From the NCBI RefSeq assembly GCF_000178155.2, contig NZ_ADKM02000128.1, positions 1-64,000 of the forward strand: 64,000 nucleotides of DNA. Direction: 5' to 3'. Position numbers and translations under genes: made by a program. Numbering within the stretch: the first letter of the stretch is position 1; every line of letters begins with the position of its first letter. Source of the stretch: Hominimerdicola alba 8. Its GTDB lineage: Bacteria; Bacillota; Clostridia; Oscillospirales; Ruminococcaceae. Positions 1 to 11,998 of the stretch are shown piece by piece. The notes beneath the pieces are model-generated. The model was not told the DNA's origin. It did no database searches and saw only the letters and a list, made by a program, of their open reading frames with translations.

Positions 1-333
1 ATTTCAGCAGTTCGTTTATACAATATGAATACTCGACATTACAATTGAATAGACACCTGCTTATGGCGGGGATGGCGTACAGTCGGTCAACGCGGCAGGT
101 TTGATGGAATCTACTATTCGGGAACAGTTCGTAAGGAATTTCCGGATATTTCAGAGCAAGGAGTGAGTTCCACCAGTTTGATTTGGCTTGACCTCCGATA
201 GCGGAGGTATTCGACAGTGACGCGGCAGCGTTAATTTACGAAAGGTGCTAAGGCCGATGGCATAACACTTTGTTGATTTCGATTATGACCCGATGATATC
301 GGGATCTAATATAGGTTCAGGGAGTGGTGCATT

Positions 334-366
334 ATGAAAATGCGCAACAGACTGTTGAATATTTGA
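334..366 (+). CDS. Putative ten-residue micro-ORF, copy 1
   Basis: Reads MKMRNRLLNI then TGA. A GGGAG SD at 320-324 lies 9 nt before the ATG. It differs from the later copies at seven bases, yet keeps length and stop, and two changes are synonymous (CTG to TTG, ATC to ATT). The ATG sits in the loop of a GTGCATT/AATGCGC hairpin. Confidence 0.4.
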   Translation: MKMRNRLLNI

Positions 367-544
367 GAGTGAGGAGTGAGTCCCAAGTACAACACAGCTT
401 AGCCTCCGAGCGAGGGAGGTATCCTGACCACAGCACTTGAAGCGCAAACTAATGAAAGGAAATCAGACCGATGGCATAAAAGGTTTTCTGATCTGAATGT
501 TAGCGGCAGGTTCGCCGCACAAATTATATAAGGAGTGGTGCATT

Positions 545-577
545 ATGGTAATGCGCGCTAGACTGCTGAGAATCTGA
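545..577 (+). CDS. Putative ten-residue micro-ORF, copy 2
   Basis: Reads MVMRARLLRI then TGA, preceded by AAGGAG and 9 nt. It differs from copies 3-5 by one residue (Asn to Arg at position 9). Same hairpin around the start as in copy 1. Confidence 0.4.
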   Translation: MVMRARLLRI

Positions 578-759
578 AAGATTGGAGTGAGTCCGAAGGG
601 TAATGCAGCTTAGTCCCGAAGCGAAGAGGGACACCCCGACAAACGGCGCGTGAGCGCTAGTAATTCTGAAAGGAATGCAGACCAATGGCATAGTTGGTTT
701 TTTATCCCGACTTTTCGGCGGTGGGTTCGCCGCACAAACTATATAAGGAGTGGTGCATT

Positions 760-792
760 ATGGTAATGCGCGCTAGACTGCTGAATATCTGA
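760..792 (+). CDS. Putative ten-residue micro-ORF, copy 3
   Basis: Reads MVMRARLLNI then TGA, preceded by AAGGAG and 9 nt. Lies 215 bp after copy 2. Confidence 0.4.
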   Translation: MVMRARLLNI

Positions 793-973
793 ATGTGAGG
801 AGTGAGTCCGAAGGGTAATGCAGCTTAGTCCCGAAGCGAAGAGGGACACCCCGACAAACGGCGCATGAGCGCTAGTAATTCTGAAAGGAATGCAGACCAA
901 TGGCATAGTTGGTTTTTATCCCGACTTTTCGGCGGCGGGTTCGCCGCACAAATTATATAAGGAGTGGTGCATT

Positions 974-1006
974 ATGGTAATGCGCGCTAGACTGCTGAAT
1001 ATCTGA
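974..1006 (+). CDS. Putative ten-residue micro-ORF, copy 4
   Basis: Reads MVMRARLLNI then TGA, preceded by AAGGAG and 9 nt. Identical to copy 3 and 214 bp downstream of it. Confidence 0.4.
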   Translation: MVMRARLLNI

Positions 1007-1188
1007 ATGTGAGGAGTGAGTCCGAAGGGTAATGCAGCTTAGTCCCGAAGCGAAGAGGGACACCCCGATGATCGGCGCGTGAGCGCTAGTAATTCTGAAA
1101 GGAATGCAGACCAATGGCATAGTTGGTTTTTTATCCCGACTTTTCGGCGGTGGGTTCGCCGCACAAATTATATAAGGAGTGGTGCATT

Positions 1189-1221
1189 ATGGTAATGCGC
1201 GCTAGACTGCTGAATATCTGA
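1189..1221 (+). CDS. Putative ten-residue micro-ORF, copy 5
   Basis: Reads MVMRARLLNI then TGA, preceded by AAGGAG and 9 nt. This is the last full unit. Beyond it only the Met-Ala-stop type of motif continues. Confidence 0.4.
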   Translation: MVMRARLLNI

Positions 1222-1583
1222 ATGTGAGGAGTGAGTCCGAAGGTACATGCAGCTTAGTCCCGAAGCGAAGAGGGACACCCCGATGATCGGCGCATGAGCG
1301 CTAGTTTAAAGAAAGGTAATTAGACCGATGGCTTGATTTTAATTGTCGCTGATGCGGCACTCGACTAAAATATATTGAAAGGTAATAGGACCAATGAGAA
1401 GATAAGTTTTTATCCCGTCTAAAGATTATTTCTCTACCGAAAGGAAATTAAATTCCAATGGAAATTTGATATATATGCCTGCACGTTTGCTATGAGTCTG
1501 CTTGCGATGCGGGTAAAGGGTCTTGACTTTCTATATATAACATGAAAGGAATCAAAGTCCAATGGCTTAATATGTGGATCGTA

Positions 1584-2943: not shown

Positions 2944-5580
2944 ATGGCAAAAACTACTGCTAAGAAAAGCGAACCTATCTACGTTGACAGCGTTGAGGCT
3001 CTTACTGCCAAGATAAAGGAAGTAAGAGAGGCTCAGGCTAAGTTCGCTGAGTACACTCAGGAACAGGTCGATAAGATCTTCAAGGCGGCTGCACTGGCTG
3101 CGAACAAGGCTCGTATCCCGCTGGCTAAAATGGCTGTCGAGGAAACAGGCATGGGCATCGTTGAAGACAAGGTCATCAAGAACAACTATGCTGCCGAGCA
3201 TATCTACAACGCATACAAAAATGTGCAGACCTGCGGCGTTTTCGAGAGAAATGAATCATACGGCACAACTAAGCTGTACGAACCTATCGGTCTGATAGCA
3301 GCGGTAATACCTACCACAAACCCAACTTCCACCGCTATATTCAAGACACTGATCTCACTTAAGACCAGAAACGGCATCATCATCAGCCCACACCCCCGCG
3401 CAAAGAACTGCACCATCGCGGCTGCCAAGATAGTTCTTGATGCGGCTGTTGCTGCGGGCGCACCTGAGAATATCATCGGCTGGATAGATGTTCCCTCACT
3501 GGATATGACCAATGAGATAATGCGCGATTCAGACCTGATACTGGCTACAGGCGGTCCCGGAATGGTAAAGAGCGCTTATTCTTCGGGCACACCTGCACTG
3601 GGTGTCGGCGCGGGCAACGCATCGGCTATAATCGATGCTTCTGCTGACATCAAGGTGGCTGTGAACTCCATAATCCACTCGAAGACTTTCGATAACGGTA
3701 TGATCTGCGCTACCGAGCAGACACTTATCGTTGACAAGAAGATATACAAAGAGGTAAAGGCTGAACTTAAGGCAAGAGGTTGTTATTTCCTTAACAATGA
3801 AGAGGCTGACAAGGTAAGACATACCATGATAATCAACGGCGCACTTAATGCGAAGATCGTTGGTCAGCGCCCTGTTGCTATCGCAAAACTCTGCGGCTTT
3901 GAAGTTCCCGAAAATGTCAAGGTGCTTATCGGTGAGGCTACCAGCACTGACCGTGACGAGGCTTTCGGTCACGAGAAGCTGACTACCGTTCTGGGTATGT
4001 ATAAGGCTGACGATTTCGATGATGCACTTGACAAGGCTGAGGCTCTGCTGGAGAACAACGGCGGTCTGGGTCATACATCGGTACTGTGGATAGATAACGT
4101 CAACGAGCGCGAGAAGATGATGAAATTCGCTGAGAGAATGAAGACCAGCCGTCTTATCATCAACACTCCGTCTTCGCTGGGCGGTATCGGTGACCTCTAC
4201 AACTTCAACTTCGCACCATCGCTGACACTGGGCTGCGGCTCATGGGGCGGCAACTCGGTTTCCGAGAACGTGGGCGTTAAGCACCTGCTGAACGTTAAGA
4301 CTGTTGTTGAGAGGAGAGAGAATATGCTGTGGTTCAGAGCGCCTGAAAAGGTTTATTTCAAGAAGGGCTGTCTGCCTGTTGCACTTGACGAACTGAAAAC
4401 TGTCATGGGCAAGAAGAGGGCGTTCATCGTTACAGACCAGTTCCTCTACAAGAACGGCTACACCAAGCCTATCACCGACAAGCTGGATCAGATGGGCATT
4501 GTACACGATATATTCTTCGATGTTGCACCCGACCCATCGCTGGGCTGCGCACAGGAGGGTGTAAAGGCTATACGTGCATTCGAGCCTGATACCATCATCG
4601 CTATCGGCGGCGGTTCTGCTATGGACGCTGCAAAGATCATGTGGGTGATGTACGAGCACCCTGAGGCTGACTTCCTCGATATGGCAATGCGCTTCATCGA
4701 TATCAGAAAGAGAGTCTACACATTCCCGAAGATGGGTGAAAAGGCTTACTTCATCTGCATACCTACTTCTTCGGGTACAGGTTCTGAGGTAACACCTTTC
4801 GCAGTTATCACCGATGAAAAGACAGGTCACAAGTATCCTCTGGCTGACTACGCTCTGCTGCCTAACATGGCTATCATCGACACCGATCTGATGATGAGCG
4901 CACCAAAGGGTCTGACTGCAGCTTCCGGTCTGGACTGCATGGTGCATAACCTTGAGGCTCTGGCATCTGTAATGGCTACCGACTTCACTGACGGTATCGC
5001 TCTCCAGTCGCTGAAAATGACATTTGAAAACCTGCCTGAGTGCGTTGACAACGGTCAGACCGCAGTCAAGGCAAGAGAAAAGATGGCTCACGCTGCAACT
5101 ATGGCAGGTATGGCATTCGCAAACGCATTCCTTGGTATAGGTCACTCGCTGGCACACAAGCTGGGCGCTTATCACCACCTGCCTCACGGCATCTGCTGCG
5201 CACTGGTAATAACCAATGTCATGAAGTTCAACGCTAACCCTGTTCCTACCAAGATGGGCACATTCTCGCAGTACGAGTATCCCAAGACCCTTGAAAAGTA
5301 CGCTCTGGTAGCACGTTCGCTGGGTCTGTTCGGCAAGGACGACAAGGAGTGCTTCAAGATGCTCTGCGACAAGGTAGAGGCTCTGAAAGAGCGCGTAGGC
5401 TGCAAGAAGACTATTGCTGAATACGGCATCTCTGAGGAAGATTTCCTCGCTACCCTCGACCAGATGTCTGAGGACGCATTCGATGACCAGTGCACAGGCG
5501 CTAACCCAAGATATCCTCTCATTGAAGAGCTGAAGGAGATCTACAAGGCTTGCTACTACGGCACTGAGTACAACGGCTGA
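2944..5580 (+). CDS. adhE: Bifunctional aldehyde-alcohol dehydrogenase AdhE
   Basis: 878 residues, the usual AdhE length. The N-terminal half is a CoA-acylating acetaldehyde dehydrogenase (catalytic Cys in NGMICATEQ, about residue 257). The C-terminal half from about residue 460 is an iron-dependent alcohol dehydrogenase, with GGGSAMDAAK for NAD binding and the metal-binding histidines in GHSLAHKLGAYHHLPHG. It turns acetyl-CoA into ethanol while re-oxidising two NADH, the main electron sink in ethanol-forming anaerobes, and typically forms cytoplasmic spirosomes. The start has a GGAGG SD. It is a single-gene unit with a strong promoter, a long leader and its own terminator, consistent with high, redox-tuned expression. 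Confidence 0.97.
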   Translation: MAKTTAKKSEPIYVDSVEALTAKIKEVREAQAKFAEYTQEQVDKIFKAAALAANKARIPLAKMAVEETGMGIVEDKVIKNNYAAEHIYNAYKNVQTCGVFERNESYGTTKLYEPIGLIAAVIPTTNPTSTAIFKTLISLKTRNGIIISPHPRAKNCTIAAAKIVLDAAVAAGAPENIIGWIDVPSLDMTNEIMRDSDLILATGGPGMVKSAYSSGTPALGVGAGNASAIIDASADIKVAVNSIIHSKTFDNGMICATEQTLIVDKKIYKEVKAELKARGCYFLNNEEADKVRHTMIINGALNAKIVGQRPVAIAKLCGFEVPENVKVLIGEATSTDRDEAFGHEKLTTVLGMYKADDFDDALDKAEALLENNGGLGHTSVLWIDNVNEREKMMKFAERMKTSRLIINTPSSLGGIGDLYNFNFAPSLTLGCGSWGGNSVSENVGVKHLLNVKTVVERRENMLWFRAPEKVYFKKGCLPVALDELKTVMGKKRAFIVTDQFLYKNGYTKPITDKLDQMGIVHDIFFDVAPDPSLGCAQEGVKAIRAFEPDTIIAIGGGSAMDAAKIMWVMYEHPEADFLDMAMRFIDIRKRVYTFPKMGEKAYFICIPTSSGTGSEVTPFAVITDEKTGHKYPLADYALLPNMAIIDTDLMMSAPKGLTAASGLDCMVHNLEALASVMATDFTDGIALQSLKMTFENLPECVDNGQTAVKAREKMAHAATMAGMAFANAFLGIGHSLAHKLGAYHHLPHGICCALVITNVMKFNANPVPTKMGTFSQYEYPKTLEKYALVARSLGLFGKDDKECFKMLCDKVEALKERVGCKKTIAEYGISEEDFLATLDQMSEDAFDDQCTGANPRYPLIEELKEIYKACYYGTEYNG

Positions 5581-11847: not shown

Positions 11848-11922
11848 TGGGGTATAGCCAAGCGGTAAGGCAACGGACTTTGACTCCGTCACTCGATGGT
11901 TCGAATCCATCTATCCCAACCA
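11848..11922 (+). tRNA. tRNA-Gln (anticodon TTG)
   Basis: The acceptor stem TGGGGTA pairs with TATCCCA. The anticodon stem ACGGA/TCCGT holds loop CTTTGAC, giving anticodon TTG. The T arm GGTTCGAATCC is canonical. CCA is encoded (11920-11922). Confidence 0.95.
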
Positions 11923-11925
11923 TAC

Positions 11926-11998
11926 TGGGGCGTCGCCAAGCGGTAAGGCAACGGACTCTGACTCCGTCATGTCGAAGGTTCGAATCCTTCCGCCCCAA
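11926..11998 (+). tRNA. tRNA-Gln (anticodon CTG)
   Basis: The acceptor stem TGGGGCG pairs with CGCCCCA. The anticodon loop CTCTGAC gives CTG. It shares its D and anticodon arms almost exactly with the preceding tRNA, so it is probably a tandem duplicate. CCA is not encoded. Co-transcribed with the TTG copy, three bases away. Confidence 0.95.

Follow-up and report, generated by a model that had tools for sequence, protein, structure and literature searches.

The phage lambda bar sequences are two-codon minigenes, and the sponge RNAs CsrB and RsmZ carry repeated binding sites. The TwoAYGGAY motif has two loops with AYGGAY, and 6S RNA acts on RNA polymerase. The accessible part of PMC8708949 describes the axe-txe mini-ORFs as two-codon minigenes that regulate in cis, and overexpressed minigenes as potentially toxic via peptidyl-tRNA release; TwoAYGGAY is listed without an Rfam number in the part of PMC2864571 available to us. 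Here we analyze an array of very short reading frames at the beginning of a 64-kb window (the whole stretch of DNA under study), position 1 of which is the start of a contig. Its nine shortest frames all have the composition of a two-codon minigene, that is, a Shine-Dalgarno (SD) sequence, a start codon, one or two sense codons and a stop.

Nine mini-ORFs in the first part of the window

The initial annotation, made from the sequence of the window, had described nine units of this kind. All of them were recovered, on the + strand, and are listed here from the first base of their GAAAGG.

240–265, +, mini-ORF 1: GAAAGG SD at 240–245, ATG GCA TAA at 257–265 (MA)
454–479, +, mini-ORF 2: ATG GCA TAA at 471–479 (MA)
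668–693, +, mini-ORF 3: ATG GCA TAG at 685–693 (MA)
883–908, +, mini-ORF 4: ATG GCA TAG at 900–908 (MA)
1097–1122, +, mini-ORF 5: ATG GCA TAG at 1114–1122 (MA)
1311–1336, +, mini-ORF 6: ATG GCT TGA at 1328–1336 (MA)
1377–1405, +, mini-ORF 7: ATG AGA AGA TAA at 1394–1405 (MRR)
1439–1469, +, mini-ORF 8: ATG GAA ATT TGA at 1458–1469 (MEI)
1544–1570, +, mini-ORF 9: ATG GCT TAA at 1562–1570 (MA)

As annotated, the spacer was 11 nt in seven of the nine units (the units at 1439 and 1544 have 13 and 12 nt), seven units encoded MA and the others MRR and MEI, all three stop codons (TAA, TAG and TGA) were used with Ala read from GCA or GCT, and the last four copies, from 1311 on, lay beyond the repeat of 214 nt from start to start. 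The pattern GAAAGG-N10..13-ATG-(1–2 sense codons)-stop had no further match on either strand of the whole window, and its mean count in 200 base shuffles of positions 1–1620 was 0.0. Both GAAAGG and the GGAG found before a longer frame described below are portions of the sequence complementary to the usual 3′ terminus of 16S rRNA.

The view of the array as a set of mini-frames held for the mini-frames themselves and failed in so far as these were thought to be its only frames, because frames of 8–13 and 16–28 codons are present as well. The first frame of 16–28 codons (class A), the frames of 10–13 codons, the GGAGTGAGTCC elements, the contig end and the terminator had all been absent from the annotation. 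Each 214-nt unit also carries a 10-codon frame, AAGGAGTGGTGCATTATG...stop (class B), and an SD-like element (class C).

334–366, +, class B ORF MKMRNRLLNI-stop: preceded by the SD GGAG (321), start codon in a hairpin loop
545–577, +, class B ORF MVMRARLLRI-stop
760–792, +, class B ORF MVMRARLLNI-stop
974–1006, +, class B ORF MVMRARLLNI-stop
1189–1221, +, class B ORF MVMRARLLNI-stop
160–171, +, class C element GGAGTGAGTTCC: SD-like, without a start codon
373–383, +, class C element GGAGTGAGTCC: followed by CAAG in place of RATG
584–594, +, class C element: followed by GAAG
799–809, +, class C element: followed by GAAG
1013–1023, +, class C element: followed by GAAG
1228–1238, +, class C element: followed by GAAG
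402–420, +, covarying hairpin HP1 of unit 1 (gcctcc...ggaggt)
613–632, +, covarying hairpin HP1 of unit 2
828–847, +, covarying hairpin HP1 of unit 3
1042–1061, +, hairpin HP1 of unit 4: identical in sequence to unit 3, no row in the alignment
1257–1276, +, covarying hairpin HP1 of unit 5
861–872, +, hairpin HP2 (GCGC...GCGC), given for unit 3: covariation at one of four pairs

The array is thus an ordered series of 1–3-, 8–13- and 16–28-codon frames between covarying hairpins. The GGAGTGAGTCC elements of the window retain the SD-like core and have AAG where some homologues have ATG; since initiation at AAG is very inefficient, they could be defunct starts or have a structural role.

The array is part of a predicted RNA gene in its own right

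Scanning genome contigs for the promoter gave at least 118 stretches. The 80 pattern loci screened first (L051–L130) yielded 53 with a CAAG-type start, which together with 17 loci of the genus and the window made 71; a terminator was found in 55 of these, and 45 were non-redundant. This set of 45 transcripts, 55.4 kb in all, includes the 3′ part present in the window and excludes L038, on a second contig of genome G008; loci L131–L168 were used solely for listing class A and class B frames and for the stem test. In the 44 non-redundant loci other than the window, the array was framed by a promoter and a terminator, and the gene measured 473–1811 nt from the −35 element to the first terminator match, a simple search that may have placed some ends wrongly.

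1–1616, +, micro-ORF RNA gene, 3′ part: promoter and first frame at the end of another contig (L169)
1584–1616, +, intrinsic terminator (hairpin and T run), closing the array

In complete loci the array starts with a near-consensus promoter with an extended −10 element, TATTGACAnnnn[AC]CAAnnn[AG]TGTGnTATAnT followed by CAAGG, and ends with an intrinsic terminator. The same genome carries such a promoter with a first frame (MDVSESLLSVQGSYIS) at the end of contig C71 (L169). Upstream of the RNA gene lies a divergent DUF1292 gene, assigned with Pfam in one case and by sequence pattern in 31 of the 80 screened pattern loci, 53 of which have the CAAG-type start. Past the DUF1292 gene, 6S RNA was detected at the gathering score in 7 of 18 loci and at weaker scores in all four further loci, upstream of the array and on the opposite strand (L041 being turned); its coordinates are, for example, 521–732 on the minus strand of L169 and 3650–3861 on the minus strand of L033. 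The putative micro-ORF RNA, DUF1292 and 6S RNA are a kept order that joins two RNA genes.

On the other side, the next genes vary among the 18 loci listed, so that the conserved regulated gene expected downstream of a cis-acting leader was not found: they include a Spo0A_C-type gene followed by adhE, and genes for isocitrate dehydrogenase, an aldo/keto reductase, ruvX and GAPDH, all names other than Spo0A_C having been assigned by reading the sequences. In the window, a 136-aa ORF just past the terminator (1868–2278, +) encodes a Spo0A C-terminal DNA-binding domain (PF08769, E 5.7e-26, residues 22–124; no second Pfam domain at E 0.001). Because the downstream genes differ and the unit has its own promoter and terminator, it is to be regarded as an RNA gene in its own right and not as a leader: the array belongs to a predicted stand-alone RNA gene that runs from a near-consensus promoter to an intrinsic terminator.

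Short versions of 621–861 nt, by the simple terminator search, were seen in L069, L097, L109 and similar loci. They have a QQQAV-type first frame, for example MEKMDGSQQQAVSPVAVK, and in L069 and L097 the upstream gene is a different one, on the same strand.

SD sequence, start and early stop are retained

The 45 transcripts contained 236 ATGs preceded at the proper spacing by an SD match of at least 6 nt. Dinucleotide shuffling, done 20 times, gave 19.9 ± 3.9, and the antisense strand had 2; since the transcripts are related, these counts are not independent events. More than 20 codons followed before a stop in only 6 of the 236 in frame 0, as against 53 in frame +1 and 64 in frame +2. Stops within three codons numbered 139 in frame 0, 98 in frame +1 (inflated, because ATGA itself gives a stop there) and 40 in frame +2. 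Frame lengths clustered at 2–3, 8–13 and 16–18 codons, the aligned SD spacing was 7–9 nt in 220 of 293 cases, and each RNA carried 2 to 15 frames (SD of at least 5 nt, nested starts counted, 4-nt SDs left out).

GAAAGG..YCC elements were also collected by a definition that does not include ATG. An ATG lay within 3 nt in 106 of these 122 elements, and the stops of the 106 were TAA in 58, TGA in 32 and TAG in 16; a stop within four codons (2–3 codons, Met included) was found in frame in 75 of the 106 and in 31 and 27 in the other frames. The annotation's claim that start and stop persist while the bases change is borne out: SD, start and early stop are conserved across related genomes despite base changes. 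It had also taken homologues that freely lose the ATG or stop as evidence against the mini-ORFs: no such free loss is seen in the GAAAGG class, where 106 of 122 keep the ATG, and it does occur in the GGAGTGAGTCC class, where 50 of 156 elements have an ATG and 106 have none, often with RAAG or RCC instead. Two orthologous mini-ORF copies (L036 and L039) have lost the early stop and their frames run on. Pairing around the mini-ORF start codons was considered and rejected (own stems 4.36, swapped partners 4.43), and the conservation of the SD, start and stop of mini-ORFs is thus not explained by pairing. Comparison shows that these three signals, and the borders of the gene, are retained; the arrays would accordingly be read as transcribed and translated, which we infer from sequence.

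Distribution within and beyond the genus

Within the genus, 18 of 29 genomes, among them the window's own, have matches to the 214-nt unit, and R. albus AR67 and R. bicirculans 80/3 (L134) are among the named carriers. The exact promoter with CAAG occurred in 7 of 197 genomes of the family and, among 391 genomes of the class, only in the window's own, an undercount because synteny with 6S RNA reveals diverged members. An exact pattern, GTGAGTCCRATGGCWTRR, proved too lineage-specific, with no match in 295 genomes of the order, the window's own included.

6S RNA was found in 104 of 118 family genomes, and 31 regions from other genera were anchored on it (L243, on the wrong side of 6S RNA, was excluded). 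By eye, 14 of the 31 have a promoter-like sequence that departs from TTGACA-N16..18-TATAnT at no more than one position, together with a first frame of 14–25 codons that begins 73–111 nt after the start of this sequence; several of these 14 then have two-codon frames. Strict YCC-ATG mini-ORFs numbered 30 on the sense strand, none on the antisense strand and 2 in one shuffle, with at least one in 19 regions, at least two in 6 and none in 12. Their second residues were Tyr (7), Lys (6), Arg (3), His (2), Cys (2), Asn (2), Gly, Phe and Gln (1 each), five were start-stop, and Ala occurred in none. The idea that the meaning Met-Ala is the conserved part does not survive this comparison: because the mini-frames of other genera read Met-Tyr, Met-Lys and so on, never Met-Ala, the conserved feature is the form and not the dipeptide. 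The place of the predicted gene, its promoter and the YCC(A/G)ATG context reach further than GAAAGG-ATG-Ala-stop.

In one locus of another genus (L233; G511:C54), frames reading ME, MD, ME, MD, ME, ME and M-stop lie at about 1270–1665 in array orientation. They are mostly about 55 nt apart, without a 214-nt unit, and the strict pattern counts one of them. At the level of the order, 67 genomes had a 6S match, and we inspected 30 loci from 14 families; a class A-like frame was seen by eye in two families (f1 and f5) and, within 1.5 kb on either side of 6S RNA, in none of the other twelve.

Ribosome occupancy as a possible function

We tentatively favor, at somewhat less than even confidence, the reading that ribosome occupancy is how the RNA acts: it would be a decoy or buffer for initiating ribosomes and possibly a sensor of free ones. 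A 16–28-codon frame would come first, followed by repeated frames of 10–13 and of 1–3 codons between small hairpins. With a well-placed SD sequence at each micro-ORF, ribosomes would load at many sites on one RNA and terminate almost at once. The RNA is presumably made strongly and, when made, would tie up initiating ribosomes (and initiator tRNA); possibly it reads out the number of free ribosomes. Ribosome titration or sensing as the purpose is what we infer; retention of the two-codon form with a residue that changes from genus to genus, and the 2 to 15 frames per RNA, make us prefer it to peptide products. Such a variable number is as expected of a dosage-type sponge. Counting against a decoy are the 12 of 31 other-genus regions without a strict mini-ORF and the early stops lost in L036 and L039. 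A pure decoy would also not need the constraint on class B or its kept C-terminus, and it leaves the ATG-less class C elements unexplained; both keep the rival readings alive.

Hairpins and class C elements

The hairpins between the frames could carry function. A structured regulatory RNA, in which hairpins and GGAGTGAGTCC elements act while the micro-ORFs hold ribosomes against Rho or RNases or set the folding, is an unlikely reading that nevertheless has several observations on its side. HP1 and HP2 covary: 54 cells showed two-sided changes, with a shuffled mean of 16.8, none of 500 shuffles reaching this count and slid versions giving at most 11, in a test on the same alignment from which the structure was derived. 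In all loci, hairpin loops contain the start codons of classes A and B, and the arms of these hairpins fit their own partner best (class A, 6.53 and at most 6.18 in 40 swaps; class B, 5.97 and at most 5.27). The retention of 106 of 156 GGAGTGAGTCC-type elements without an ATG points the same way, as it means that initiation is not the purpose of every SD-like site, and the protection of mRNA by ribosomes on mini-ORFs is a subject of discussion in the accessible part of PMC8708949. Against this reading, repeated two-codon frames with precise SD spacing exceed the needs of protection, and two of five covariation measures were not above shuffles (pairs changed on both sides, 5 versus 3.8, reached in 104 of 500; further pair types, 12 versus 14.8). 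Nor does a pairing target of class C stand out in the window's own genome. No two-sided change was seen in the hairpin at the class B start when the genus alone was compared.

A search of this genome for antisense pairing of the class C element returned, once the array and its first frame are set aside, a single site; it had 2 mismatches and did not surpass a control with the pattern reversed, and such a target was rejected.

Constraint on class B frames

The class B pattern had 138 matches, corresponding to 86 distinct frames of 9–13 codons. Class B frames differ in length by whole codons. Their pN/pS was 0.48 in frame (95% interval 0.39–0.64, overlapping that of frame +1) versus 0.72 (0.56–0.89) and 0.94 out of frame, and 0.57 versus 1.10 and 1.07 for the last six codons; comparison thus shows coding constraint on these predicted frames. 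By contrast, class A gave 0.66 versus 0.76 and 0.65, with no frame-specific signal; a few listed frames, MGKSKGT.. and MGQSKGT.., probably do not belong to class A and were not part of this calculation.

The in-frame value of about 0.5, together with an NI or NM end in 49 of the 86 frames and a related end in 20 (12 others being of class C type and 5 of other types), would suit a peptide operon, in which the gene would serve to make the peptides of 10–13 and 16–28 aa and the mini-ORFs would do no more than couple translation. We consider this improbable, given that the commonest frames add no more than two residues to Met, that class A lacks frame-specific constraint, and that the listed downstream neighbors vary by genome. 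More doubtful still is a sensor of nascent peptides or antibiotics, in which stalling at class B ends would refold the class C element just downstream. Consistent with it, a GGAGTG..CC-type element begins exactly 6 nt past the stop in 66 of the 86 frames (3–7 nt in 75), and the conserved residues of class B are the C-terminal ones; the lack of a constant gene downstream in cis speaks against it.

Leader peptides and terminators are often found together, a general point in favor of a leader or attenuator acting in cis on the next gene, which we hold to be very improbable since the next genes differ between loci and a terminator closes each of the 45 units (selected for having one). Equally improbable is a non-coding repeat whose ATG and stop are by-products of a conserved motif: the string YCCRATGG is indeed conserved within the genus, but all three stops are used, the second codon varies, in-frame length changes, constraint is specific to the codon frame and the form recurs in other genera with different residues.

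Comparison with known systems

Searches with Rfam returned only tRNA in the whole window, which has two adjacent tRNA genes (11848–11919 and 11926–11998, +), and only weak matches below gathering in positions 1–2900. In 18 related loci they returned tRNA or 6S RNA only, and in four more 6S RNA and one weak miRNA-model match below gathering (L041); the OLE, ROOL and GOLLD family models had no match in the window or the related loci. No relative of the array was found among phage records, plasmid records and one viral-contig pattern. As the initial annotation had supposed, no described RNA of such a layout was found in the literature, in a search covering few subscription papers. Since no Rfam family fits and no description was found, the architecture is new in kind; the function remains a putative one, read from sequence. 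A little more hesitantly than occupancy itself, we propose a new class of bacterial RNA, translated, non-protein-coding and stand-alone, beside DUF1292 and 6S RNA, with up to about fifteen start-stop micro-ORFs that would serve as a ribosome decoy or an availability gauge. If this is true, bacteria have evolved, near 6S RNA, an RNA whose output is ribosome occupancy and not a protein or a base-pairing target, and it would offer a natural system for initiation, instant termination, recycling and peptidyl-tRNA drop-off. Such genes can escape comparative RNA searches (too coding) and gene callers (too short); as R. albus and R. bicirculans, two of the carriers, are gut bacteria in culture, the proposal is testable now.

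Like OLE, ROOL and GOLLD, as presented in the accessible part of PMC12286853, the micro-ORF RNA would be a long stand-alone structured bacterial RNA; unlike them, it has no Rfam match and is dominated by micro-ORFs. With leader peptides and uORF attenuators (for example, those in the accessible part of PMC13009471) it shares short frames between hairpins, and it differs from them in having no constant downstream gene, its own terminator and many frames per RNA. Like the CsrB and RsmZ sponges, it carries a variable number of repeated sites on one stand-alone RNA, whereas its repeated site resembles a ribosome-binding site with start and stop and not a CsrA-type GGA hairpin, and GAAAGGT-type copies do not contain GGA. 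With the two-codon minigenes lambda bar and axe-txe it has in common the SD sequence, ATG, one or two codons and stop and the possible effects on ribosomes and peptidyl-tRNA. The minigenes described in the accessible part of PMC8708949 are single or paired, lie upstream of or overlap a protein gene and act in cis, whereas here up to nine occur per RNA, in a predicted stand-alone RNA gene present in many genera.
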